Shown: in pieces, positions 1 through 61,390 of the stretch
Layout: each line of letters starts with the position of its first letter
Numbering within the stretch: position 1 is the stretch's first letter
NCBI GenBank assembly: GCA_949752745.1
Contig: OX457031.1
Coordinates: 24,318,081-24,382,080 of the forward strand
DNA from: Protula sp. h YS-2021
Lineage: Eukaryota > Annelida > Polychaeta > Sabellida > Serpulidae
DNA length: 64,000 bases
Reading direction: 5' to 3'
Translations under genes and position numbers: made by a program
Notes under the pieces: generated by a model
The model's input: the letters and a program-made list of their open reading frames with translations, nothing else
What the model was told of the DNA's origin: nothing
The model's database searches: none

Positions 1-1044
1 GAGAGGCTTATCCCTACCACCCTACCAGATGGACCCTGGCAGAAATTGGGGATAGATGTGTTTGAACTGGATAAGAGTAACTATTTAGTGACTGTCGATT
101 ACTACAGCAGGTACATTGAAGTGATATACTTACCTGACATGACGAGCAGAACTGTAGTTATGAAGCTGAAATCGCTATTTTCAAGGCATGGTATACCCAT
201 GGAAGTGAGGAGTGATGGTGCACGACAGTTCGTGTCCAAAGAATTCACTGAATTTTCACAACAGTATAACTTTGCACACTCTGTGAGCAGCCCTCACTTT
301 AGCCAGAGCAATGGTGAAGCAGAATCTGCCGTGAAAATCGCAAAACGATGCTTGAAACAGAGTGATCCTTTTGTAGCGTTGATGCTACATAGGAATACTC
401 CTCACACAGCGACAGGAAAATCACCTGCTGAATTACTTTTTGGAAGAAAACTGCGCACTATGATCCCTACCCTGAAAGAGAATTTAAAGCCAGTGAACTC
501 TCTTCATCAACAGGTTCGCGAACGTGACCTAAAATACAAACAAAATATGACCAAGCAGTTCAACAGAAAACATGGTGCGACAGAATCAACAACCTTTCAA
601 ACTGGACAATCTGTGCGTGTGAAAACTGAAAAAGAAAAGATTTGGAAACCTGCAACAATAGTTCAAAAATGTGACTTTCCTAGATCGTATTTGGTAAAAA
701 CACCTGATGGCAAACAGCTCCGCCGCAACACGAAACATCTGAGATCGATGCATTCCAATCCTGAAATGAAACCTAGCAAAGAACAAAGCAGACATTTTAA
801 TAACCAGTTATGGAATGAATTTCTTGACAGACGTATGCAAAATTTCAATGCAGCTTCCTCCCCTGTCATTCAGAAACCTGAAAAGAAAAGTGTTGCAGTT
901 ACATGTCCAAATCCCCAACAAACAATTGTGCAAATGAAATCGTCTGTCTTACCCGCAGCTGTAAATCCAATAAAACCAAGTATAGTTCCAAATGTAAGAA
1001 GATCAACAATAACCATCCGACAACCTAAAAAGTTAGATCTGTAA
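1..1044 (+). CDS. Ty3/gypsy retrotransposon Pol, integrase part (5' partial)
   Basis: The frame is open from the first base of the window, so the protein begins upstream. It reads as an integrase core. The catalytic triad is visible: D in GIDVFEL, D in VRSDGA and E in SNGEAES. A C-terminal stretch around KIWKPATIVQ..RSYLVKTPDGKQLRR resembles the small beta-barrel DNA-binding domain of gypsy integrases. It ends with a stop at 1042-1044 after a basic tail. Integrase inserts the reverse-transcribed element into the genome. The frame has no stop or shift in 348 codons, so this copy may be young. Protease, RT and RNase H should lie left of the window. The LTR is found 1.2 kb downstream. Confidence 0.93.
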   Translation, partial: ERLIPTTLPDGPWQKLGIDVFELDKSNYLVTVDYYSRYIEVIYLPDMTSRTVVMKLKSLFSRHGIPMEVRSDGARQFVSKEFTEFSQQYNFAHSVSSPHFSQSNGEAESAVKIAKRCLKQSDPFVALMLHRNTPHTATGKSPAELLFGRKLRTMIPTLKENLKPVNSLHQQVRERDLKYKQNMTKQFNRKHGATESTTFQTGQSVRVKTEKEKIWKPATIVQKCDFPRSYLVKTPDGKQLRRNTKHLRSMHSNPEMKPSKEQSRHFNNQLWNEFLDRRMQNFNAASSPVIQKPEKKSVAVTCPNPQQTIVQMKSSVLPAAVNPIKPSIVPNVRRSTITIRQPKKLDL

Positions 1045-9582: not shown

Positions 9583-10830
9583 TTACTGCAGATCCGGACT
9601 GTGTGTTAACGCATAGTCTAGTGGACTTCTTCGTGTAAGACTTCTTTCCACCGGACTGCTGGGAAGTCCTGCAAGAAGGAGGACTATTGTGAATTTAGCA
9701 GCAACAAAAGGAAATGCAAACAGCACCTGCGATGGCTGCTGAAACAGCAATGCACCGATCGCTATTGCGGCCACATCCGGACACGGAGACATGTACGCCC
9801 GAGACGATGATTGAGACGATTGGCAAATAGAATGACCTGAGGTGGACCTCACGGAGATTGCAACGCAATCCAGCGAAACATGTAATCCGCTAACGCCCAC
9901 TCGGCGTGAACAACCTGACGCATCCGAGAAGCTAGGTCCGCGAAAGCATTCAAACTGTCTGAGAGGGCTGAATGAAAAAAAACCACAACCCCAAGCACAC
10001 AACTATACCTGTTTGGTGAGACGAGAAAGCATGGGTGACTGGATGCCACCCTGCTTGGACAAACACGCCACCACCGTCTGATTGTCTATCAGACACTGAA
10101 CCACGTGACCGTCGAGAAATGTTCGCCGAGTCTGACAAGCTACCAAAACCGCTTTCATTTCCAGGGCATTGAAATGCAACCGCTGTACGTTCCTGTCCGC
10201 ACTTACTAACAACCAATCGTCGAAATATTGGGGCAACAACAACCCTATATGTCGACTCCACTGCCTGACTACCTTCATAACTTGTGTAAACACAAACGGG
10301 CAATCCAAAAGGTAGGGCGAGAAACTGATAACTCTGATCCTCTACCGTGAATGCAAGAAAACGATTTGCGGCCTTGTGCATGGGAACGTGGAGGTATGCG
10401 GACGAATACACTGAAACCGCTTACATATCCCGACTTAGTTTAGATGTGACCATCTTGGGAGTATCCATCGTGATAGATAAAAGATGGAGGAACCGAATGA
10501 GTTGCGACAAGTCTATGACAAAACGCAAACCCCCGGACGTTTTGGGTACGAGAAAGACACAACTGAAAAATGAGTGTCTATCGGCATCTTCTCTATAACT
10601 CGCTTGTCTATGAGATCAAGACGGATTGGGAAGCTTGGCCAGCGGTCGAAGAATCTGACAACCCCACCTGTCCCTTGCAAACGGTAAGGGGTAACCCCAG
10701 CGCAGCAGATAAACTACATTTTTGGGAGCTCCCAGAGCTTGCCAAAAATTCTTTAGTCTTCCCCTACAGGCGTTCGATTTGTGACACTGACCAACCATTT
10801 TTCGGCAGAAACCGAAAGTATCTGACAAAG
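9583..10830 (-). pseudogene. DIRS-like reverse transcriptase / RNase H, frameshifted
   Basis: Reading right to left, fragments in different frames give LKNFWQALGAP and LRWGYPLPFARDR (RT N-terminal region), then SAYLHVPMHKAANRFLAF and YQFLALPFGL, then FVFTQVMKVVRQW. The catalytic motif QYFDDWLL follows. RNase H-like HFNALEMKAVLVACQ, FLDGHVVQCLIDNQTVVA and SKQGG come next, then NAFADLASRMRQVVHAEW and YMSPCPDVAAIAIGALL. Order and wording fit DIRS1-type Pol. Several frameshifts and stops separate the pieces, so it is non-functional, although the YxDD residues themselves survive. Confidence 0.85.
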
Positions 10831-15529: not shown

Positions 15530-18118
15530 AATGGTATTTTGATTAATGATATAACTGACCATTTACTGATTTTTTGCTGTATTGAATATGGCAAAATTGT
15601 CAAAGACACTTCAAAGGTTTATAAATTTACACGAAGATTAACTAAAGAAATCTTTTTATCTATACAATGTGAGCTTAAGAACTATAATTGGGATGAAATA
15701 TATGAAGCAAGGGATCCTAATAGCGTCTATGCTAAATTCGTGACCGTGGTTAGGGAAACTTACGATAGGTATGCTCCTCACAGAAAAGTAAAATAGATAA
15801 TAAAAAACACCATTCACCATGGTTAACTCCGAACTTAATTAAGTGCTGTAAAAAAAGTACAGATTATACAAGCGATGCATAACAAATAAGACAAGAAAAA
15901 ATGAAAACAAATATAAAAATTACAGAAATATGTTAAATTCAATTCCGAAATTAAGCAAGAAAAAATATTATAGTGACCTATTAAACTTACACAAAAATAG
16001 TATTGAGAAACTTGGAAAATATTAAATAAAATTATTAAACCTAATCGACATGTTGCAAGCATCCCAAAATATTTCCTTAGCGACGATAACAGAAAAGTGA
16101 CTGACACCAAAGATATTTCAAATGGCTTCAACAACTTCTTTGCAAATGTTGGTGCTAAGTTAGCAGATCAAATTGAAACAGTTGACAACAATGGGAGTAT
16201 CTACGACTACTTACCCAAAGTAAAGAAAACACTATGTTCATCTCTCCAGTAAACGAAGTAGAAATCCTGAACATTGTTAACAGCTATAAAAGTAAAACGT
16301 CCACCGATTGTGATGATTTAGACATGGCCATTATTAAAAACGTTATACATTGCATTGTCGGTCCGTTTGCTTATATTTGCAATTTATCTCTTCTCAATGG
16401 TATATTCCCGGATCAAATGAAAATAGCTAAAATAATCGCTTTATACAAAGCCGGTTGTAAATACCAATTCACAAATTATCGTCCGGTGTCTCTCTTACCT
16501 CAATTTTCAAAAATACTAGAAAAAAGCATTCAATAAAAGACTAATTGACTTCATTGAAAAATTTAGACTGATTTGTGATTCACAATATGGCTTCAGAGCC
16601 AACAGATCAACTTCTTTAGCTATAATTTACCTGATCGAACAAATCACTGATAATCTCGATACTAAGAAGTAACTATTGGTGTATTTATAGACCTTAAGAA
16701 GGCTTTTGATACAGTCAATCATCAATTATTATTGCAAAAACTTAAACACTACGGAGTGAGGGGTACAGCAAATAAGTGGTTTGAAAATTATCTTGGAAAC
16801 CGAAAGCAGTAGGTATATTTTAATGGGTGTTGTTCGGAAATCTGTAATGTATCCTGTGGCGTACCTCAAGGGTCAATTCTTGGCCCCTTACTATTTATAA
16901 TGTATATTAATGATATAATTAAGGTCTCTAAATTACTGAAGTTTGTACTCTTCGCGAATGATACGAATATTTTTGCTTCTGGTTTATGTTTATGCTCAAA
17001 TATAAATTATGAACTAGAAAAGCTTAATACTTGGTTTAGTATAAATAAATTATCTTTAAATCTTGCTAAAACAAACTATATGATTTTTGCAAATAGAATT
17101 GTACCAAACATATCTTTAAGGTGGTGCAGCACAGAAATAGATAGAGTACAAGTAACGAAATTTTTGGGCGTACTAGTCGATGAAAAACTCTGTTAGAAAT
17201 ACCATATTGACAGAGTTAGTAGTAAATTGTCAAAATGTTCTTCAGTCATTTTCAAAGCAAGTACAGTATTACAAATTGAGTCCCTTCAAACCTTGTACAA
17301 TTCCCTGTTCTTGCCTTATATATCGTATTGCACGAAAATCCGGGGCAGTGCATATAAAAGCAACTTGCAGTGTATCACGACGGCGCAAAATAGAGTAATA
17401 AGAATAATTGCACGCTTGAACACGCAACAATGTTATTTCGCATATTTTCAATAGTAAAAAATTCACTGACTTAATGAAACTTAAGACACTTATAGTGGTT
17501 CAAAAAGCTAAATTGAATTTACTGCCTCCTAGTCTGCAATGCAAATTTAATTTGCAGGACTATGATGGCAAATATGTGCTGAGAAACACCAGTAAATTTA
17601 AATTACGTTATGCTAGGACTACATTAAAATCAAAGTGTGTAATTGTAGGAGGAGTTAATATGTATAACTCACTGTCTGTTAATGTAAAGTCGACTACAAA
17701 CATTGTGCTGTTTAAGAAATTGTTCAAAGCATTCGTCCTTCACAGCTATCTGTTTAATGATGTGTAAGAACTTCACCTAAATAACCTTAGAACTATTGCC
17801 AGTTACAGCTAATGTTAAAAATTAACACGTAAAAATCTGTTCAATACAAAACAATAAACCACTTCTTAAAATGTAAATCCTCTGTTCTATTAATTTTCGC
17901 AATTTGGAAGCTATCTATGTCGCATGCTTAATTGTTTAGTTTCTGTCGTTTCTGTCGAAATGGAAAGTTCAAATATGTTAAAAGGCAATTCTCTAGATAA
18001 GTTTCACACTTTTTTGAATGTGCCTTTTTCCTTCTATTGATAGAGTCAAATATATTGTATTACTTGTAATTTATGAACTATGTAACTTAGAACGAAATAA
18101 ACGATTTGATTTGATTTC
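15530..18118 (+). mobile_element. Non-LTR retrotransposon (LINE, Jockey/CR1 group), 5'-truncated and decayed
   Basis: The copy starts in the endonuclease-RT linker: NDITDHLLIF (15545), then NSVYAKFVTVV. The RT follows in shifted frames: NYRPVSLLPQFSKILEKS (16476-16530), FIDLKKAFDTVNHQ (about 16686), GVPQGSILGPLLFIMYINDI (16860-16919) and FLGVLVDEK (17161). The catalytic FADD is changed to FAND (about 16952), which by itself should abolish activity. Stops and shifts occur at about 16671 and 16810. The 3' end has AATAAA near 18097 and a short tail of TTTGA repeats, as in CR1/L2-like elements that end in microsatellites. LINE RTs copy their own RNA at a nicked target site. Confidence 0.88.
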
Positions 18119-47729: not shown

Positions 47730-50700
47730 TTATGGCCGCTGCTGCGCATACTTCTGTATTAAAATCTTGAGACTTCTGTTTGGCGTCAGTTGATTGCTCT
47801 GTAGGGGCGCATTGGTCATTGGTGAGCGCGTCTTCCCATTGGCTATCCAAGACGCGATGGCCGCGCGCTCGTACGTGTATCCGTCTGCAATCACCAAAAA
47901 CACATTGTGTACCGTGTTTTCTTATTGAAACAGTAGCATGTAATACCCCCAGACGATCCCAAAGTTCCGTCTTTCTTCTTTCTTTCTTTCTTTCTTTCTT
48001 TTTTTTTTTTTTTTTTTAGTGTTTTCTACTGTCTACTTTTTAACCTCCTATTCAATGGCTATTCATAAATATTTACTCAAAGGTAAACAGGAATAGAACC
48101 ACAAATGTTGCACGTTTTCTACCCTGCATCGCTCGAAGAAAGAAGGGAGGGAACCGGTAAGTAAGATGCCCTCGGATTCTAGCCCTACTTTTTGCAATCG
48201 TTGAGATTCTCACCCCATTAATGAAGACGAACTTAAACGTCACTTGTTATCTCATACAATGTGTTGAACTTATACCAGAAAACGATGGAGCGGATTGTTA
48301 ATTACCGGGTAATTGAGCATGGGGAGTGGGGAGGGGGGGAGCAGGGACAGACAGAGACAAGAGCGGGCAGGGGGAGGAGTGCGAGGGAAAACACTGAAAT
48401 CCACACATGCAGAATTTATGAGTGAATGATCGTCAATAACCTGACATAAAATGTAATAAAGATTCACAGTAAAAAACTTGGTATAAATCAGTATTCGCAA
48501 AGAAAAGAAAAATAAGCCTGATCCAGATCAATAGGTTCGATGCAACAGATATCAATTGCATAATCGGTATGAATGAGAAAGAGTTTCCAATAATAAATCC
48601 AATCACTTGATCATAATAGGGTATCCATGATGATCAAACCTCCCCTCATGTCATAATTCTTTCCCAGATAAGTTAAGGCTTATCTCAGACTTAGATTAAT
48701 TCCTTATCGACATAGTTCCTTTCAGATATCTGTACCAGTTCAATGCGCTATTCAAAACCAATATGTCAGTTTCTTATCATTGACAAAACCTTAGTAGTTA
48801 CGATCAACGGGATATCTATACGCTCCAGTGATCGCTATCCAACATGGCGTACTTTTACATGTTTTCACGCAGTGAATTTTAGTGAAAGATGTTAAACAGT
48901 ACCGACGAAAGATAGCATGGTAAATATGGCCTTAGAATGAAAATCTACGGTTCCATCCGGGTGTTTCAAAGCGGTGAGTTTTTGTCTTTTACTCCTAACT
49001 TCTTTCAGAGAATTAACTAATCAGTATAAATAAATAAACCATTAAGATTTTTGAATATTTTAACAGAAATATATACTATACGAAGTAAATATTGACGAAG
49101 AAACTACTCCAGATCCCGGATGGTACCTGTGTGAAATAACAGTATCCATAACAGAGGTCTGCGCACGAAATATCAGTCAGTTAAAAAAAAGAAGGCATAT
49201 CCGGAACTTTACTGCTTTTTAACGTTTTTAAAACGATCGCCTGCCGTCACATATCGGCTTTGACGACATTTTCAGCATCTCTAACATTATAATGAGATTA
49301 AATGTACAAAGTTTAAATCTTTAAGCTACCAAACGAATTCAAAACTGAAAATTGATCTTGCAAAGTCGCTTAATAGATACCAGATTATACACATGTTTAT
49401 TCAATATTTATAGCCTCAAAATCGAAACAACAATTCCCTGTTTTGTGGATATTCCAACACCCCCCATTGAAATTAAAGATTTCACATGGGGTTGTTTTAA
49501 ATTTGTTCTTCACCTTTTTAATATTTTATCATTTGCAAGATGGCTTAAAACTACTCATCCTAGACCATTTGGGTTAGAAAAAAAGTTGGGAATGTGTAGA
49601 ATGTCTTAAACAAGGGACATTGGCAAGAGGTATTGACCTTGATCTTCAAGGTCACGTGTGTTTTGGAGTTAATTTCGGAGTTAATTTTTTATTTTCTAAA
49701 AATATTTAATCCTCTTGACGCCTCTAAGATATAATGAAGGCTAGCTCTATATCAGTTCTCAGTCCACTTTATCAAACTTATTTTTGACAAATTTCCCAAA
49801 TAATATGTCTCTATTTAACCAAGTATCTGTTCCAAATTAGATCCTTGCATAATACAAGAAGGCAAAAATACTCCCATCTGCTCCAAGTCCCAGTTTTACT
49901 TTTTTTATAGTTGAACGACTCGCTTCGTGCGTTGAGAAATTAAGCTGAGCCATACAGAAGACAGAAACAAAATGGCGGAAAAGAAGAATTTTCACCGCAT
50001 CCAAATAGACAAGAAAATTCTGACGTGTCCAATGTGCTGGAAGCTTTTCAACAACCCAAAAATCCTGTCATGCAACCACACTGTGTGCAAGTCTTGTCTG
50101 CTATCACTGGTCGATTATACGAAAAGCAGCAACATCGAATGCCCAACCTGTGACGACAAGACAGAGCTGGACAAGGAGAAAGGTATCGATTGTTTATCAG
50201 ATAACCATTACGTCAGGTATCTCGTGCAGCAGGTGCGCGAACAGCGATTGGAGGATTTGTGCGAGAATTGCCATGACGTCACAGCGACTGTACGCTGTAC
50301 AATTTGTATCGTAAAGCTGTGCGGTGGTTGCGCCGATGCACATATGAGTGACTTAACAACTGTGCATGACTTAGCCTTTCTCCTGGAAGAAAAAGAAGAG
50401 AAAAAAGATTTAGCGGATCTGTCACACTCCAGTGGCGCCTCTAGTAACAACAGTCTGACTATTGATGACCTGCCCTTTGAGGTGTTTTGCGAGCAGTGTA
50501 AATCCACGGACTGTGACCACTGTATTAATATGAAGAAGGTGGCATTGCGGAACATCAAAAAGAAAGAGAAGACTAAACCAACCAGTGGCGAATTAGGTGG
50601 CGATTTTGAAATCGTTGTGGTGTCGGAGTTTGGAGGGGATGACACCGAATCCCTTAATGCCATGCCGCTCTATGGGGAGGATGGAGAGAAAATGCTCGAG

Positions 50701-53700
50701 ATTGCACAAACTTCCGGTATTGCCCAAGTGCCTAGTGACGTCATTCCACACAGCCGAGAGGAGTCGGGAAGTGAAGCAGAAGGTCAGTATCCGATGGCGT
50801 CTACTCCAAATGACACGCCAACAGGACAACCAGTAGTGGCGTCCGGTCAACAGCTTGTGATGACGTCAAAACCAGGCGAAGTGACGCCTAAACCCGGAGC
50901 TGGAACTCCGAAGTCACAAAGATCTGTTTCTACTGGAGATGAGAACATGTCGCCAAGGTCAGCAGGTTCAGCCACACCAACAGGCGCCATGACACCAGCC
51001 TCAGGTCACGTGTCACCAGACGGGTCAAGGACGCCAAGGAACGAGGATGCTATGACACCACGAGAAGGCATGGCTCACTCGAGCCAGCAAAGCCCAGTAC
51101 AAGGAGAGCCTAGGATGCCTGCACTACAGCACAGCGGCTACCCCGCAATGGAGCCGAACCCAATGTTGGCAACACTGATGCAAAAGCCCGACAACTGGCC
51201 TCAGTTTGAAAACGACGGCGAGAGACCAGCCGATGGGGTGTACCAAGACGAATTCCAACCACCTCCCAACAGCAATTTTACAATTGGGACCGCACCTGCC
51301 ATGCAGCCGGTATCCCCCCGCGGAACCAAGAGGCAGCTTCGCCCCCTGTCAGCCGGCAGGCTGAAATCTGGAAACAAAGGGCGTCAGGAAGAGCCAGAAC
51401 CCGCGCCCGAATGGGACAAACCTCTAGATCGACCTGTCCCCGACCCATCTCAAAATCCCAAAGTGGGCAGGCCTTTAGCCAAGGCCCAGCCATACACGAT
51501 GCGAACGGGTTCAGGCTTCAAAGCGGCTGCGAAACAACCGGACGAAGGCGTCATTGAAGAAGAATACAACCCGGAAAGGGCTGCAGCTTTGGCAGTACCG
51601 CGGTCGTCAACGCCGACCAATGAAACGCCGGATATGCCGAGGAAAAACCGACTTGGTTTCTCCGTGAGCCGAAGCGACGACAGCTACAGCGATGGGGAAA
51701 GTCTCAAGAGTGACGCGAGAAGTATTCAGAGCCCCACCGGAAGTCAACGCAGCGTCCGAAGCGCTGCCGGAAGTCAGCGCAGTGTCCGCAGTGCCACTGG
51801 AAGTCAGCGCAGTGTCCGAAGCGCCAGCGGAAGTCAGCAAAGCGTGAAAAGCGTCCAAGGAAGCCCAGCCGGAAGTGGTAACCTAGAAAGTGAAAGCCAA
51901 ACTGCTGACGTCAGAAATGCGCAAGCACATCAGGACGACGACGCCGGAAGTGTTAGAAGTGGACATGGGAGTGTAATACAGGACAGCGCCGGAGTAACAT
52001 TACCCGATATTCACGAAAAACCCGCACGTGCAAATAAAGGTAAGCGATAAGTCAAGCTTGATTACTTTACCATTTTGATCCACTGAGAAATGAAATTAAG
52101 TACCCGAAAGTGCGCAAAAGGGACCGATATACCTTTATTTTGTCACAAGTCTGTCACTCAAGAAGCCACTAAAATGAAACGTTTATTCGAAGGAAAGTGG
52201 GGGTGTTTAATTCTGAAGTCGAGTGTGCTTCTTGCGTTACGTATGAAAACAAAAAGAGTTTGAACTGCTTGAAACCTAAAAGAACGGCTACCTGTCACAT
52301 GCTGACGCGCATTATATGAAGGTTTGCCACAAAAATATTACGATCATTAAATCATTATCATTCAACACACAAGAACTAAAAACCTGCATCTAAATCCATT
52401 AAAGCCACAATCTATGTTACAAAGAAAAAGGATATATCCATTCAAGCTAGATTTGTGAACCCGCATATAACTGAGCTGTGATCGCATTTGGTTTGATTTC
52501 ATATATACTTTGTACTAGTTTGGTTAGAGATTTAGGGTCTTCTTTAACAGAGCAGACAGATTTATCTTTGAGTTTTTGGTATCTTAAAGAAAGGCCTGGC
52601 ATACAGTCCGTAGATTAATGTCACAGAACGAACGCTTAAGTTATTGCAGTAATATTTCAGGGGCATATTTCAGCTGATTGATTCAAAATTTCATAAAACA
52701 AAAACACACAAAACTGAAATGGGATAAAAAAAAGTCATATAAGGTACCTTTTTTACTCTCAAATAATTATTACACGCTTAATTGAATTTCACTGAGAACT
52801 TAATAAAAATAGTTAACGGTAATACATTTTCTTCTGGTTTATTTTGAATTATGAGACACTAATCCTCATATATGCCAGATGTTATATATAATAGTATAAT
52901 AAGAGCGTGAATACCGTTTCTTTGATAACTATCTTCCTGTGTGAATGCTTTATTTCAGGACCGGATCTGATTCATATGGAGACAGAGTATATCACACAGC
53001 CAGCTTTCAACGGATTCAGAGCAGAGCAACCACAGGGCAAGGGAAAGGGACGCTATTTCAATCCTTATTTAGCTCAACAGGTACCAGGTAAGAATGAAGG
53101 CACTTACTTATTGAAAAAAAAATGATTTATATAAATTTCGTTGCGTATTTAACACAAAGAACGTTACATTTTTGCATGCCGCTTCTTTCTTCAGACAAAA
53201 ATTGAACTGAAATTTTGCAAAAATGACATGTATTTCATTCGAACGAAACTGAGAGGTAAATTCACACTGTTGTTTTGTCAGGTCACACAAACAGCCAGAT
53301 GCAAGCCGGCAGGGGTCGCACTGCCTCTTTGACGCAGCCCTATCACTTCGCCCAAACAGGGACCAGCCAACGAGTGACCAGGCCAGGGACCGGATCCAGC
53401 CAGCCCAAAGCGGGAACCAGTGGTACGAGATACACGTCACAGAGACCAGTGGTGACGTTTATCGACAGGTCTGATGACGAAGATGATGATGACGACGGTG
53501 AGAAAACGTATCATATCTTTTATATTACATATTTGCAAATATTTCCAATGCAGTTCCTTAAGTATTTTTTCCTTTACTTAAATTGCTTAGAACTTGTTTG
53601 TTATACTGCAGCTTGCCTCTGTGGATTACCACTGAAGTTTTTATACTCTCTCCGTCTTTCTGTCTCTCTCTCTCCCCATCTCTCCACCAATAACTGGTTT

Positions 53701-56700
53701 TTTCTAACATTGCTCGCAGAAGACACCGAAGCGGACCCGGTTCTAAAGCACATGGTTTCCGAGGAAGAGGCTATCTTTAACGATCCCACGCTCCGCGGCA
53801 TGGTAATGCAGAAGATGAGTGAACAGGCACGGTACGACCGCGAGGGCGACGGCGAGTCCTTCCTGTCCGTCAGCATGGAGTCGGAACCAGACGATCCGGA
53901 TGACAAGAGAACAAAAACAGGATCCACGGACCGTACAACTGGAACCATGTTCGATAAATTCGTTCCCATACGACTGATGGAGATCTTTAAGGAGCTGGAG
54001 GATGAGATTTCCTACGAGATTGAGATGGAGTTTGAAACAATAACAGCTATGCCTGCATATGAGGTATGCATTAAGCAAAAACACAACCTAAAATTTAAGT
54101 CACCAAAGGTGTTATGAAAAAAGCAAACAACTAAATTTTTTATTATTTTTCTCTCAAACAATCCGTCACTTTGTTTCGAAAAAGAAGATTATCTCTTCAT
54201 ATATTTAAACCTAGTTCACTTTACTCTTTAACAAAATTACGCTCAGTCTTCAAACAAATCATTACGTTTAAAAGACAGTTTCAAACGGCAGAAGCTCTAA
54301 TGAAAAATCGCCTTCAAGCTTAAGTAAGTTACTTATGTTTGTCTTTTTGCAGGACTTTTCTCTCGAGGAGTTGAGATGGCAGGATTACAGTAACTTTGAA
54401 GGCCACTGCAAAGTTCTCATGAAGCAAAACTACAGCCTAGTATTTAGTGTTCTTCAGTCTGGTTTCAAACTGAATACGCTTCCTCCTAAATCCGGTCCAA
54501 AGTTTGATGAACTACCACCTATTGAAGAGGACAATGTTTTGAATACAAACCAGGGCATGAAAACTCCCTTAAATCACAGCATGGCCGGCGAAAAGACACC
54601 TGTTACCAAGCAACCACAACAAGATGGCGACAGAACACCAACCAATCAGAACGAAATAGGCTTAGATAACGAGCCAATAACAGGCATCGGTATCGACCAG
54701 GCTTTGGATGGAATTGCCAACAAGACGAAGACAAAAAAGGGTTCTAAAACAAGCACACCGAGCCACACACCTACTGGGAAGAAAGGTGCAAACAAAACGA
54801 CGAAAAGCGGAGCCGCTGAAGTAAGGGCGAGCCAGCCGAATTCACAGAAGCCTTCTCGGCCTAATTCAGCCGCTAGTCAGCGTCTAAACCCGCCAAGCCC
54901 TACCGAAATCATGGATCATTTACGCGACCAGCTAAATGCTTCCCAAACATCAGTTCCAGAAATAACAGCGGGGCCTTACGTCACCACTGACAGTCATCCG
55001 AATTCGCCCCGCCCACTCAGCCCTAACATTGACCAATCAATGGAGAGCTTGCACGTGCGTGAGACACAGCCTTCCGGGTCGAGCACTCCGCTGTCCATTC
55101 GGAGCACAAGCGGTATCCCGCCGGCTTTTAATTTAGACCCGCCGCGAGTCGGAGGCATTCGACTCACCTTCGGCCTTCCCGAGAGCATGGGCGGATTAAA
55201 CGTGTGGCAAAAATGGGACGTTTTCACAGCTACGTCAAAGTACGTCCCAATCCTTCTGTTAGCGGCAAAAGTGTATTGGACATCTCGAGGAATGCCCAGT
55301 TACAACAGTAATCTAAAATTAGCCGTTACTGTGAGCAATACTCCAGTTGCTAAGGGCAAAAAGAATGTATCAATGGAAGCCGACGCACTGACAACGTATG
55401 CGAAAAAATACGACCCGGTGATTTCCTGTCAGCGTAATAACAGCCTGATTTCCCAGTTGAACTGTATCACACATATGGAGGACTACAATGATTATAGCTT
55501 GGAAGAGCTACGATTGGCTGATTATATTCACCGCGGGATTGTTGGGGAGGAGAAAGCGCAGATATGTATTGAAGACATTTTGGAGGCCCTTTTGCTTCGA
55601 AATGCCCACGAACGAATTTAAAATTTTCAAATTTATCAATATGGTTGTTGTTACTTGTTCACAAGACTGTGACAGGTTCACACATATATTTTTCTGTGTT
55701 TAAAAAGTTTGAAGTGGGGAATTTTTGCATTTTGCTATATCGACAGTATTAAGACTTCGAGTCTGCATCATACATGTTTCTCTTTGTTTATATTGTTATG
55801 TATTTATTTAATTTTCTTTACAAGAAACACAGGACGTAACAACATTAATTCCGTTAACAGTACACCGGAAACACCACCAACTGTGTCTTGCACTTTAAGA
55901 AAAACACCCTTGAAAATTTGAAAACCAACTTTAAGCTAAAAGTCGAGTTTTAGATCGCATGGTGTTGTTTTTGTTTTGTGTTGCTAAGAAATTCCAACGA
56001 ATCAATGCCCAAAATGAAAAAAAAAAAAACAAAAAAAAAAACTGGTAACTGTTTAACTTAATTAGTTTTAGTTTTGCCCACTGAATTACAAACAAATTGT
56101 AATAGCCGTGCTCAGAATAGAAATGTATTTTTCTCAGTTATCTAAGTATAATCCCAGCAGTGAGCCCTGTGATCCTTTAGCAGTAGTCATTGCTCTGAGC
56201 GTGACAAGTATCTTAACCGCAGATCCAGTTAATCACACACGAGCGGCAAATCCAGCCAAGTAATTTATAGTTACAACTGCAATAAAACCCCGATATCATG
56301 TGCTCTAATATGGCGACGATCTTTATTTTGGGCTTAACCAAAACGTGGCAGTTTTGTCCGTTTGCTCAAAGAAACTACCAAACTGTTTCCATGCATTGGT
56401 GCAGTTACAATACTATGTTAATAAACTTTTGACGTTAAATAATGCTTTTGTTTTCTGACTTCATGAATGTACCACCGACTTGATAAACAGAAGACCCGCA
56501 ATGGGCGAAAATAACAAGTGCGGACCCTAAGACTGGAAAAGTTGAAAAACCATTATGTATTCTCAATCAGTGACACATTATATAAGATAAAATTAACCTA
56601 TATGAGGGCAGTCTGATCCCACGACAGTGTGTATTCGCTCGATTTAACTTCGTCGAAGAAAAACACATGTTCAAGATATCCAGTATTTGAGTTCAAAAAA

Positions 56701-58105
56701 ATTCTGACGGAATTATAACTTGCAGACCTTGGCGATAGCTTCAGTTAAAGCAACCGAGTTGATTCAATGGAATATGGAATATGAATTGTGCTAAAAATAG
56801 AGTTGTACAGGTAGACGCGCACAGATTGGCGGAATGAGAGGAAGGGGGGTGGCGGGAGGGGGGGGGGGGGCGTGAATTGCCCGAGTACAAGCTATGGGCA
56901 CAGATGGAGACGTTTCCTCACCACACGCAATGACTGGCTCTCGCATCATTTCCATGGTGATTGGACACAAGTATTCTTCCGGGACTTGATCGTCTGCAAC
57001 GCAAGAGACAAAAACAAAATGCACAACAAGCAACACTTCCCTTGGCAATCCAAAATGGCCTCTAGGTGCAATTAACATTCTATTAACACACTGTTATTTT
57101 GACCAATTAAAACTGAACCACCGAGAACCATAGAATGTTCGCATTTATTGAGTTCTTGTTATTTTTTACTTTGATAATTTATTTTTGCTAACTTGTGTTT
57201 AAAAATGGCCACAATGTAACTATAGCGCAGAGGACACATAGTGGCATTTTCAAAACAACGCTGAATTCTCATATTCCCGTCCACCCGCCCTCACTTCGTA
57301 CACATAGCATACATACATGCATTAGGCATGTATCATAATTAACAAAAAATCGGCAGTATGACAACGTGTATGTGAATCCCTGTTTTTATGGGCTCAGTTG
57401 CTTAGAGCGTTGGTCAAGTAATCCCAATTTCCCTGGATCCAATCTGACCAGTAAGCAGGGGAACTGACTTGTGCTCCGAATGCTTCAGCTGGGCGATCGC
57501 CCCGGGTGAGATCACCTTACCTCTGCTGGTGTTGCTGTGTCGTTCAGGTGGCTGCTTCATCGGGTGCTTCTCTATCTGTTCTATGGCGCGTAGTAATTTG
57601 TTCCTGTGCCCCAGTGCCTCTAAAATGCATCCGCGTGAAAAACAGAAAGAAATAGTAAGGTCATGGCATTTCATTCGTAAAATACTGAAAAGTAGCCTTT
57701 TTTCAAGGAGTCCGTGGATTCAAGCGACTGACTTTTTTATGATACGGAAAAATGCACTGAAACGCTCAGATTAACTCAAGCAGTAACTATTTGGCCTACA
57801 TCTTTGCCACTTCATTGTTTTTTAAAATGAAAGTTAAACGTAAAAATTAAAGGTCATACCCATTTTCAAGGCATTCTTCAGTGTTTTATCATTTAACGTC
57901 AGCAGTTCCACCCCATCGATGGCATTTTCACGGAAACTTTCCGAATACTGCGACAACCCGATTTCCGCTAAAAAGTGACACACGTCGTTGATATCCCACT
58001 CTTCTGGGAGCTTCAGTTTGGGAGCGGAAGGCTTGAGGGGCGGGGCGCTGGCTTCGGACGGGTCTAAAGCAGTGTCAAACTGGATCAAATCCTGGCTGGA
58101 CTTAT
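47730..58105 (-). CDS. SAM and U-box protein, WDSUB1-like (5' partial)
   Basis: Four exons on the minus strand join in phase 1: 58105-57860, 57619-57521, 56993-56922 and 47884-47730. The first two encode a SAM domain (EEWDINDVCHFLAEIGLSQY, then ENAIDGVELLTLNDKTLK, KMG-E, ALGHRNKLLRAIEQI). The last two encode a U-box: VPEEYLCPITMEMMREPVIA CG, joined to DGYTYERAAIASWIANGKT, RSPMTNAPLQSNQLTPN and RSLKILIQKY. It ends in RP and a stop. This SAM then C-terminal U-box order is that of WDSUB1, whose N-terminal WD repeats would lie further right. I did not find them here. U-boxes recruit E2 enzymes, so it is a probable ubiquitin ligase. Intron 3 is 9.0 kb and encloses the RING gene on the other strand. 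Confidence 0.85.
47968..48020. repeat. (TTTC)n / T-run microsatellite
   Basis: TTTC repeats followed by a run of T. With the GAAA array at 47641 it brackets the last U-box exon in inverted orientation. Confidence 0.9.
48021..49971. other. Intronic/upstream DNA before the RING gene
   Basis: It lies inside intron 3 of the U-box gene and should contain the RING gene's promoter. A stretch at 49066-49222 follows a TTTTAACAG acceptor-like site and stays open for 51 codons (YEVNIDEETTPDPGWYLCE..) to a stop. Nothing identifies it. A G-rich tract is at 48318-48380. Confidence 0.35.
49972..55621 (+). CDS. RING/B-box protein with two GLEBS-like motifs, 1,341 residues
   Basis: Exons: 49972-52039, 52959-53087, 53282-53497, 53720-54063 and 54353-55621. 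All have GT..AG borders in phase. The start ATG has good context (ACAAAATGG). Residues 19-60 form a C3HC4 RING (CPMCWKL..CNHTVCKSC..CPTC). Residues 97-139 form a B-box (CENC..CTIC..LCGGC..H). A further Cys cluster, CEQCKSTDCDHC, lies near 170-185. A long disordered part follows, with four units like GSQRSVRSA (590-630) and an acidic run (SDDEDDDDD). Residues 911-931 (TITAMPAYE/DFSLEELRWQDY, across intron 4) and 1290-1310 (CITHMEDYNDY/SLEELRLADY) resemble the NUP98 GLEBS core. Inference: a ubiquitin ligase of TRIM-like start that may bind RAE1 or BUB3. I know no named orthologue. Confidence 0.85.
56281..56286 (+). terminator. Poly(A) signal candidate of the RING gene
   Basis: AATAAA 660 bp after the stop. 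A second is at about 56420. Confidence 0.4.
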
Positions 58106-58299
58106 CTGAAACACATAACAAAAGGGGCATCTACTTTAGTAAGGCGAGTGATAACCCAATCCCAGAATAAGGACACCTGTAAGTCTGAAAATTCACAGCT
58201 CTAACGAAGCACCTTCAGGGAACCACACATACTTCATGTACAAAGCACTCTATGTTGTTATCTAAATAATTATACGTAGAAAAGAATTTACTAGGCAAA

Positions 58300-58335
<36 letters not shown>

Positions 58336-58337
58336 GA
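58300..58337. repeat. A-run plus (GA)n microsatellite
   Basis: A run of A, GAAAGAAA, then about 11 GA units. Confidence 0.9.
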
Positions 58338-58668
58338 TGGCACCTCTTTGGTGACAATGAAACCTGACACATGACACATCACATGACATGACACATCACA
58401 ATCGATTTTTATCAAGAGGAAATAAACACAGTTAATAACAACATGTAATGTTTTCATTAAGTGTGTGCCTTGGCCCTCTTAACCTGGAACAACAATTGCA
58501 CGAGAATCAATTGCATGATATGGATGAATTGTAGCACTGTTTTTATCTCTTCCGATACATATAGTGCTAATTTCATAACAAAAAAATAACATGTCATATC
58601 AATGGCTGGAAGAAAAACAACAGCCGGTTTCATAACCTAAGGAGAAGGCTCTGTTCACATCACGTAAA

Positions 58669-58964
58669 CAGGCCAGGCCTTGGGACTCCGCGCCATATCC
58701 ACAAACAGGCCAGGCCTTGGGACTCCGCGCCATATCCACAAACAGGCCAGGCCTTGCGACTCCGCGCCATATCCACAAACAGGCCAGGCCTTGCGACTCC
58801 GCGCCATATCCACAAACAGGCCAGGCCTTGGGACTCCGCGCCATATCCACAAACAGGCCAGGCCTTGCGACTCCGCGCCATATCCACAAACAGGCCAGGC
58901 CTTGCGACTCCGCGCCATATCCACAAACAGGCCAGGCCTTGCGACTCCGCGCCATATCCACAAA
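58669..58964. repeat. 37-bp minisatellite, eight copies
   Basis: The unit CAGGCCAGGCCTTG, then G or C, then GACTCCGCGCC and ATATCCACAAA repeats eight times. The variable base runs G,G,C,C,G,C,C,C. Because 37 is not a multiple of three and the unit has no stop, overlapping open frames appear in all phases. None should be read as a gene. Confidence 0.97.
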
Positions 58965-58989
58965 CAGCGGAGGAAGATGATCGGAATGG

Positions 58990-59815
58990 ATCAAGCAGGT
59001 CCCTCTGAGGAGAGGAGCGAGAGTTCTAACTCAGGCGTACACATCTCACCCCTCCCCTCCCCTCCCCCTCCCAACCGCAACACTTTTAAAGACCTGACGC
59101 TTTTACCAACTACCACAGAAAATCTTCCTCTATTCTTTATATTTTTTATATATGGGACTTAATTCACTGCAAGACACAGCAATCATACAAAGCCGACGCT
59201 GAAGTAACTCTCTAGACACTCGTATTTTCTCGTGGAAACGTGCTAAGGATCCTGCAGCAGCCTTAAATGACACACTGCTAAACGCGACTTTATCATTCAC
59301 GTGATGAAGTTAAGGTTCCCATAAAACCTGAACAAAATCATACAGGAAGTTCAACATGGTTTTATTGAATTTACTCATACGCAGAATACACTCAGCGGGC
59401 AAATATTCATTAAATCACCGCAGTTTCGAAGGAGCTCAACCTTTAAACTTGGCTACAGAACACATACAGTAGACGCTAATTTTAAAAACAAAGGCGTAAA
59501 AAGTGTGACTCCAGAGTCGTCTGTTCTAACACGTGACTGAATAATAAGTTACATTATTCACCTAATGAAAGGAGTTTGCGTTTGTACTGACTCATCTTCG
59601 TTCAAAAAAGAGGCTCAGTTCCGTGCAATATGTGGTCATCTGTACATAAATAATATGTACACGTAATCAGGTCTGTACAACATCTGGTCATGTCTGTACA
59701 ATATGTAGTCATGTCTGTACAATATTTAGCCTGGTGTGTGCAGGGTATGGTTACAGGTGTATGAGATGTGATCAGATGTGACTAACCATGAACACAATCA
59801 CGCCGTACTATAAAC
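58990..59815. other. No recognised gene
   Basis: A CCCCTCC-rich tract (59047-59073) and a short tandem of about 21 bp around CATGTCTGTACAATAT (about 59665-59725) are visible. Confidence 0.5.
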
Positions 59816-60579
59816 TAGGGGCGGCGATATTTATCGATACAGCGATATGTCGCGATATGTTTTTTCACGATAAGTATCGCGATACGAATTTTTAAATATC
59901 GATGTTTTTCAATATTTTCCGCTGCATATTTAATTCAAAATATTTGGTGATGTGCTAACGAGTGATATCTGCAATGCTGCTGTTCATCATTTTACACACC
60001 ATATTCGGCTGCTTTTCGTTTCAGATATATTTTCACGATATTTTTTTCATTTAAATTTCTAACTAAGTCGGCCAGTTATAGCGTGATAAAACGTGGATAA
60101 TTTTTTTGCTATATTGGACATGAACCGATGGGATAATTGAATGGTAACTTGATAAAAAGAACATGTGACATTTTGCGATACAATGTCAGAGTAGACGCTG
60201 TGTTGTTGTTTCAGTTTTAAATACAGAACTGTTGATGTTTCAGGTTAAAAATATACCAATCAGACATTTAAGTTTAGACACTCAATCAAACAGACATTCT
60301 TAAAATTTAGTTATACATGCTGTTTGTATAATGGGATTAATGTCACTGATGGCATCCGAAACCACCATTGCCAACATACTTTTTTTGTATTTGTTATAAG
60401 GCCATTATCTATAAATGATCAATGCCGTAGGTAAGTGTTACAATTCCTAGAAATAAAGCCGTAAAACAGCCGCATTTCTCACTTTTAAAGAATTCAAAAT
60501 ATCGCGATATATATCGCGATACACAGCCAATATCGCGATACATATCGCGATACAGACTGAGCCGCGATACCCAACCCTA
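59816..60579. mobile_element. hAT-like non-autonomous element with 8-bp target duplication
   Basis: It starts TAGGGGCGGCGATA and ends CGCGATACCCAACCCTA, inverted at TAGGG..GG. It is flanked on both sides by the identical octamer CTATAAAC (59808-59815, 60580-60587). An 8-bp duplication is the hallmark of the hAT superfamily. Subterminal TATCGCGATA words are dense at both ends. The 764 bp encode no transposase, so it must have been moved in trans. Confidence 0.9.
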
Positions 60580-60734
60580 CTATAAACATAGTTTCATGTA
60601 TAAGATTTTCCCCTATTTGCAAAATGGGATCATTCTTGCATTATATGAATTTTTTTTTTGGTGCAAAACTTGAAATAGGTGTTTAGACTTTAAAAAAGTA
60701 TCAGTAATGTAAGATGTGATTGTATGTACAAGAT

Positions 60735-61390
60735 GTGCTGTCACCCTGTGTTTCTAGCTGTGATCACGTGTGCTGTCACCCTGTGTTTCTAGCTGTGATC
60801 ACGTGTGCTGTCATCCTGTGGTTCCAGCTGTGATCACGTGTGCTGTCATCCTGTGTTTCTAGCTGTGATCACGTGTGCTGTCATCCTGTGTTTCTAGCTG
60901 TGATCACGTGTGCTGTCATCCTGTGTTTCTAGCTGTGATCACGTGTGCTGTCATCCTGTGGTTCCAGCTGTGATCACGTGTGTTGTCATCCTGTGTTTCT
61001 AGCTGTGATCACGTGTGCTGTCATCCTGTGGTTCTAGCTGTGATCACGTGTGTTGTCATCCTGTGGTTCCAGCTGTGATCACGTGTGCTGTCATCCTGTG
61101 GTTCTAGCTGTGATCACGTGTGCTGTCATCCTGTGGTTCTAGCTGTGATCACGTGTGCTGTCATCCTGTGATTCTAGCTGTGATCACGTGTGCTGTCATC
61201 CTGTGGTTCTAGCTGTGATCACGTGTGCTGTCATCCTGTGGTTCTAGCTGTGATCACGTGTGCTGTCATCCTGTGGTTCCAGCTGTGATCACGTGTGCTG
61301 TCATCCTGTGGTTCCAGCTGTGATCACGTGTGCTATCATCCTGTGGTTCTAGCTGTGATCACGTGTGCTGTCATCCTATGGTTCCAGCTC
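60735..61390. repeat. 35-bp minisatellite, about 18.7 copies
   Basis: Unit: TGATCACGTGTGCTGTC, then ATCCTGTGGTTCTAGCTG, with few variants (CACCC/CATCC, GTTTC/GGTTC, CTA/CCA). Each unit carries a CACGTG E-box within GATCACGTG. There are no unique spacers, so it is not a CRISPR array. Confidence 0.97.

Follow-up and report, generated by a model that had tools for sequence, protein, structure and literature searches.

In a window of 64,000 nucleotides from the serpulid annelid Protula sp. h YS-2021 (assembly GCA_949752745.1, contig OX457031.1, positions 24,318,081 to 24,382,080 of the forward strand; all coordinates below are those of the window), the plus strand carries at 49972-55621 a gene that we infer to be transcribed as five exons and whose predicted product of 1341 residues combines an N-terminal RING finger with two C-terminal GLEBS motifs of the NUP98 type. 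The model contains no internal stop codon, and all four of its introns start with GT, end with AG, and join exons in compatible phases. Exon 1 (49972..52039; codons 1-689 plus the initial base of codon 690) supplies the start codon, the RING, a B-box-like region, and then a long disordered-looking stretch, and ends at a gtaagc donor; exon 2 (52959..53087) and exon 3 (53282..53497) have AG/GT borders and an open frame; exon 4 (53720..54063) ends inside the first GLEBS copy; and exon 5 (54353..55621) encodes residues 920-1341 and includes the stop codon. The first AATAAA past the stop (56281..56286, plus strand) is a candidate poly(A) signal, and a second lies at 56420. A comparison with NCBIfam returned sub-threshold matches for exon 1 and no match for exon 5.

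The two GLEBS motifs are the central feature of the protein. The original prediction, made by eye, had marked 21-residue GLEBS-like segments at residues 911-931 and 1290-1310, each matching NUP98 at about 14 positions, and our analysis reproduces both the coordinates and the count: copy 1 (TITAMPAYEDFSLEELRWQDY) and copy 2 (CITHMEDYNDYSLEELRLADY; 55463..55525, plus strand) each share 14/21 positions with the core of human NUP98 and 13/21 with each other, and their cores are separated by 358 residues. Both retain the pattern IT.M..Y...SLEELR..DY although 8/21 positions differ between them. Scored against NUP98, the cores reach 64 and 72. No score above 42 arose in 5000 shuffles of the protein, and the next-best position within it scores 17. 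A degenerate DNA pattern written for SLEELR is matched twice in the 64-kb window vs. a mean of 0.03 in 100 shuffles. The core of copy 1 is interrupted by an intron, which falls directly after ITAMPAYE: its first part (residues 911-919, TITAMPAYE; 54037..54063) closes exon 4, and its second part (residues 920-931, DFSLEELRWQDY; 54353..54388) opens exon 5, both on the plus strand. As the spliced core scores 64, whereas reading through the intron gives only 30, a score equal to that of the best unrelated place in six frames, the exon 4-5 join is supported.

Profile and structure-database searches assign both segments to the same family. The Pfam model Nup98_GLEBS (PF21240) matches the whole protein with 50.1 bits (E 2.9e-13) in two stretches, and each copy taken singly lies above the cut-off of 27 bits (31.5 bits for copy 1, 32.0 bits for copy 2). 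In sequence searches of the PDB at E up to 10, exon 5 by itself gave four matches, all of them NUP98 GLEBS (E 0.022-0.034); a 91-residue piece with copy 2 gave eight, all NUP98 (best 3mmy_B, E 0.0023); and a 76-residue piece with copy 1 gave 11, of which eight, namely the top seven and the last, were NUP98 (best 3mmy_B, E 0.0034), the remaining three being one meganuclease (E 0.2) and a pair of Noc4 sequences (E 0.81 and 0.83). One of the matched chains, 7byf_B, is labelled as a Peptidase S59 domain-containing protein; entry 7BYF is described as a Rae1-Nup98 GLEBS complex (PMC8790125). On sequence criteria, both segments are NUP98-type GLEBS motifs. Between the copies, residues 1147-1281 gave no Pfam match with an E value of 10 or below, and an AlphaFold2 model of residues 1180-1341 (mean predicted local distance difference test score, pLDDT, 40.1) was too poor for use.

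The residues through which NUP98 contacts its partner are present in both copies. According to the ranges of the PDB matches, E924/E925 of copy 1 and E1303/E1304 of copy 2 align with NUP98 E201/E202, which are reported to form salt bridges with RAE1 R216/R172 that are conserved from yeast to human; mutation of the yeast equivalents impaired Gle2 binding, and the GLEBS is described as the hook that holds RAE1 at the nuclear pore (PMC3783196). A glutamate pair is reported to be common to NUP98-type and BUB-type GLEBS motifs, and RAE1 is a relative of BUB3 that also binds the GLEBS of BUB1 (PMC9147866); changes in the corresponding pair of BuGZ are reported to abolish BUB3 binding (PMC9203020, PMC9147866). 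The original prediction named RAE1 and BUB3 together as potential partners. The NUP98-type identity found by Pfam and PDB search and the conserved glutamate pairs agree with its RAE1 side, whereas its BUB3 side finds no counterpart: no BUB/Mad3 family is among the nine Pfam families listed for the whole protein at E up to 10, and no BUB chain is among the PDB matches of exon 5, the copy 1 piece, or the copy 2 piece. Given that no BUB-type match was obtained, we rank BUB3 lower as the main partner, and the sequence points to RAE1 as the likelier one. The prediction had further placed the protein at pores, mRNA export complexes, or spindles; the pore and mRNA-export setting is not favored over others, because a review describes metazoan RAE-1 as a regulator of microtubules and spindles whose role in RNA export is limited or absent (PMC4806438), and the protein may just as well act at spindles, at microtubules, or in neurons.

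The N-terminal RING finger, also claimed in the original prediction, is well founded. The C3HC4 finger (residues 19-60; 50026..50151, plus strand) passes the cut-offs of two Pfam models in a search with the whole protein (zf-RING_UBOX, 28.1 bits, cut-off 25.2; zf-C3HC4, 26.3 bits, cut-off 21), and its closest RING in the PDB is that of TRIM2 (E 3.3e-13; among the matches listed, the best 60 of 100 at E up to 1), in a match that spans residues 11-87, includes both flanks of the RING, and contains 28/75 identical positions. The TRIM RINGs studied are reported to be active as dimers built by helices that flank the RING, and in TRIM2 mutation of the linchpin residue R64 ablates activity and F81A abrogates it (PMC9732051). 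In our alignment with TRIM2, R64 is faced by D61 (50152..50154) and F81 by H79 (50206..50208), both encoded on the plus strand; the single relative found for this region (P0002, described below) has Q and H at these positions, and the linchpin arginine expected past the last RING cysteine is thus present in neither sequence. The dimer interface is partly retained: I12, L17, and L84 keep TRIM2 I16, L21, and L86; I16, I31, and Y80 are conservative replacements of F20, V35, and F82; and Q87 and N35 stand in place of V89 and L39, which are not kept.

The replacement of these two TRIM2 catalytic residues is the new point of this analysis. As the equivalents of both R64 and F81, each essential in TRIM2, are changed to D61 and H79, strong TRIM2-like ligase activity is doubtful, and the ubiquitin ligase activity that had been proposed for the protein is not supported by its RING sequence and appears doubtful. 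Some RINGs function without an arginine at the linchpin position. Given that this arginine is missing in both sequences seen, the RING is most likely a weak ligase, a partner-dependent ligase, or a part used for docking or self-association, rather than a strong stand-alone ligase.

The remainder of the N-terminal part is only partly TRIM-like. A cysteine/histidine cluster (residues 97-132; 50260..50367, plus strand) presents eight candidate ligands, read from their spacing in the sequence and arranged in the order of a B-box (C97, C100, C109, C112, C117, C120, H124, and H132), and its Pfam matches are sub-threshold only (ANCHR-like_BBOX, 17.3 bits, cut-off 27; zf-B_box, 8.7 bits, cut-off 24.1); a CxxC-x4-CxxC cluster follows at residues 173-184 (50488..50523, plus strand). 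No TRIM C-terminal domain was found among the Pfam families of the whole protein. Of the TRIM-like N-terminus originally described, the RING therefore stands, whereas the B-box is represented by a run of ligands with profile matches below the Pfam cut-offs. An AlphaFold2 model of residues 1-200 had a mean pLDDT of 37.1, too poor for use. We found no enrichment of S/T-P sites in residues 201-900 (16 vs. a mean of 12.2, reached in 274/2000 shuffles) or in residues 932-1288 (10 vs. a mean of 7.0, reached in 249/2000 shuffles), and no full cyclin-dependent kinase (CDK)-type site, [ST]P.[KR], in residues 1-200, 201-900, or 932-1288.

A protein search with residues 6-150 gave a single match among 114 candidates, P0002, which is 83% identical over this region. 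P0002 is an open reading frame of 739 residues on an ENA contig of 3187 bases, and corresponds to exon 1 in a relative that is likely another species; aligned along exon 1 it is 55% identical. The identity is distributed unevenly: 199/260 in residues 1-260, 62/252 in residues 261-512, 50/62 in residues 513-574, and 44/115 in residues 575-689, so that residues 513-574 (51508..51693, plus strand) form a conserved island in the disordered-looking part. The best-kept part lies around the B-box-like cluster (56/60 in residues 91-150), with 49/60 in residues 1-60, which hold the RING, and all 20 candidate zinc ligands compared are kept (8/8 in the RING, 8/8 in the B-box-like cluster, and 4/4 in the CxxC cluster). 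Exon 1 also contains, at 51730-51838, a 30-base tandem repeat coding for GSQRSVRSA-type units, of which P0002 has a looser SPTGSQR version. Residues 1-200 found no relative in viral contigs (54 stretches), nor did exon 5 in prokaryote genome contigs (11 pattern-matching stretches).

Downstream of the gene lies a convergent neighbor on the minus strand (56794-58130), with exons for a SAM domain (57837-58130; Pfam SAM_2, 44 bits) and for the first part of a U-box (56794-57093; 24.6 bits against a cut-off of 21.4, covering positions 1-20 of the 73-position profile); the remaining U-box was not seen in minus-strand frames of >=35 residues in 55601-60000. The order of SAM followed by U-box resembles that of WDSUB1. 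Together with the introns and the retroelements, this neighbor is in keeping with an animal genome. Elsewhere the window holds pieces of retroelements, namely an integrase core (1-1041, plus strand, 51.3 bits), a reverse transcriptase (16813-17193, plus strand, 45.4 bits), and a sub-threshold reverse transcriptase match (9953-10420, minus strand, 13 bits), and two minisatellites, one of 8.2 copies of a 37-base unit (58666-58967) and one of 18.7 copies of a 35-base unit (60734-61389).

Two NUP98-type GLEBS motifs combined with a TRIM2-related RING suggest that the protein is probably a RING scaffold that docks on RAE1 in competition with NUP98. We propose that each GLEBS copy would seat on the top face of the RAE1 beta-propeller, the face used by NUP98; that the protein would thereby compete with NUP98 for RAE1; that docking through the GLEBS motifs would carry the RING end to RAE1 complexes; and that the two copies could hold two RAE1 molecules. 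RAE1 binding, competition with NUP98, and bivalency are in each case what we infer from the motifs and their conserved residues.

Several observations weigh against this scaffold reading. A protein search with residues 860-1341, with scoring limited to the 7993 candidates that had the most words in common, returned a single match, a lungfish NUP98-like protein, and a search with residues 265-422 of the exon 5 product found no relative among 390 candidates, so that orthologues of the C-terminal half, a search for which the original prediction had proposed as a check, did not appear. A full GLEBS hairpin, N-terminal arm included, comprises about 57 residues. Of the 39 positions of the Pfam model, copy 1 matches 10-39 and copy 2 only 18-39, indicating that the N-terminal arm of the hairpin is weak; in BuGZ, whose GLEBS is described as five segments, BUB3 binding is abolished when any one of four is removed and is weaker without the first (PMC9203020), and the affinity for RAE1 may therefore be low. 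The changes at the positions of TRIM2 R64 and F81 count against catalytic activity, and exon 1 is connected to exons 2-5 on the evidence of splice sites and phase. As a separate observation, the lungfish protein (P0001, 755 residues) itself has two GLEBS cores, at residues 151 and 374, with 19/21 and 21/21 positions identical to the human core.

The strongest competing explanation, though an unlikely one in our estimate, retains the docking step and adds catalysis: the GLEBS motifs would select RAE1 or RAE1-bound complexes as substrates and the RING would ubiquitinate them. This possibility overlaps with the scaffold reading, and the likelihoods of the two are not exclusive. It draws on the C3HC4 RING above two Pfam cut-offs with TRIM2 nearest among the matches listed, and on the dimer-interface residues that are kept (I12, L17, and L84) or conservatively changed (I16, I31, and Y80); it must accommodate, however, D61 and H79 at the places of R64 and F81, each reported to be required in TRIM2 (PMC9732051), as well as Q87 and N35 at the interface places of V89 and L39. 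A mitotic scaffold directed to BUB3, or to BUB3 and RAE1 with one motif per propeller, is less likely still. The kinship of RAE1 and BUB3, the binding of RAE1 to the BUB1 GLEBS, and the glutamate pair shared by both motif classes (PMC9147866) would be compatible with such a protein, whereas only the NUP98 GLEBS model fits among the families listed, with neither a BUB/Mad3 family among the nine at E up to 10 nor a BUB chain among the PDB matches, and the lack of full CDK-type sites in the three regions scanned gives no sign of heavy mitotic CDK control.

Two further explanations question the gene or the motifs themselves, and we consider both improbable, to about the same degree. The locus could be divided between two genes, one with the RING and B-box that ends near 52 kb and another, carrying the GLEBS motifs, made of exons 2-5, a view favored by the fact that the sole exon 1 relative seen, P0002, comes from a contig of only 3187 bases; but the gtaagc donor of exon 1 is in the phase required by exons 2-5, and the P0002 reading frame stops, following KG, within a few residues past the position of this donor, as expected of an exon read into its intron. 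Alternatively, the GLEBS motifs could have decayed, or be too short for binding, with the C-terminus as the degenerate vestige of a NUP98 piece that had been acquired. The poorly matched N-terminal arm, of copy 2 most of all, and the lack of a C-terminal relative in the exon 5 search are what one would expect of such a remnant; yet both copies retain IT.M..Y...SLEELR..DY, and because they differ at 8/21 positions this retention is difficult to account for unless selection has acted or the copies arose by a recent duplication.

The proposed RAE1-docking scaffold resembles several known systems in part. It shares with the NUP98 GLEBS (PF21240; PDB 3mmy and others) the core ITxM..Y...SLEELR..DY and both glutamates that bridge to RAE1, and differs in that the motif occurs twice, is placed in the last third of a RING protein, and has a weak N-terminal hairpin arm. 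TRIM2/TRIM3 (class VII TRIM) provide the nearest PDB RING, flanks included, among the matches listed (28/75 identical), whereas the protein described here has no filamin or NHL family in Pfam and has other residues in place of the linchpin arginine and F81. To our knowledge, none of NUP98, BUBR1, BuGZ, Mad3, Bub1, and BUB1 is a RING protein. These are the GLEBS carriers named in the figure legend of a review (human NUP98, BUBR1, and BuGZ; yeast Mad3 and Bub1; mouse BUB1; PMC9147866), and the BUB3-binding BuGZ/ZNF207, BUB1, and BUBR1 likewise have a GLEBS with a glutamate pair (PMC9203020, PMC9147866), of a type whose family is not listed for our protein. The titles, abstract openings, and passages on GLEBS motifs that were covered show no RING protein with such a motif, which is weak evidence of novelty as most subscription papers lie outside that coverage; the statement in the original prediction that none is known is thus uncontradicted, yet RING proteins that bind RAE1 are known. 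The PHR proteins (MYCBP2/PAM, Highwire, and RPM-1) are described as large RING ligases whose contact with RAE-1 is made by one domain that carries a small conserved motif, and in this respect also link a RING protein to RAE1 by a small motif; they are reported to have their own RCC1-like and PHR domains and a RING-H2 (PMC4806438), whereas no such Pfam family was found here at E up to 10. By analogy, they may be regarded as a known parallel for the logic of a RAE1-docking RING protein. TRIM34, a second parallel and likewise a RING protein associated with RAE1, is reported to co-precipitate it, directly or indirectly, with its ligase activity seemingly dispensable; no GLEBS is reported for it in the main text, where the term appears once, in the title of a reference (PMC13189347).

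We tentatively suggest a more specific possibility, on which we place less confidence than on the scaffold reading itself: that the gene represents an undescribed RING/B-box-like class in which tandem GLEBS motifs would capture RAE1 off NUP98 and pair RAE1 molecules, the linchpin-less RING serving as a docking and assembly part, so that the protein would act as a RAE1 switch. Viral proteins commonly target RAE1-NUP98, and a trap for RAE1 of this kind could serve defence. If the RAE1-docking reading is true, a RING protein equipped with two hooks would compete directly for RAE1, its two glutamate pairs would permit clean binding tests, and the tie of RING proteins to RAE1, a loose one in the case of the PHR proteins and TRIM34, would become a defined and testable contact.

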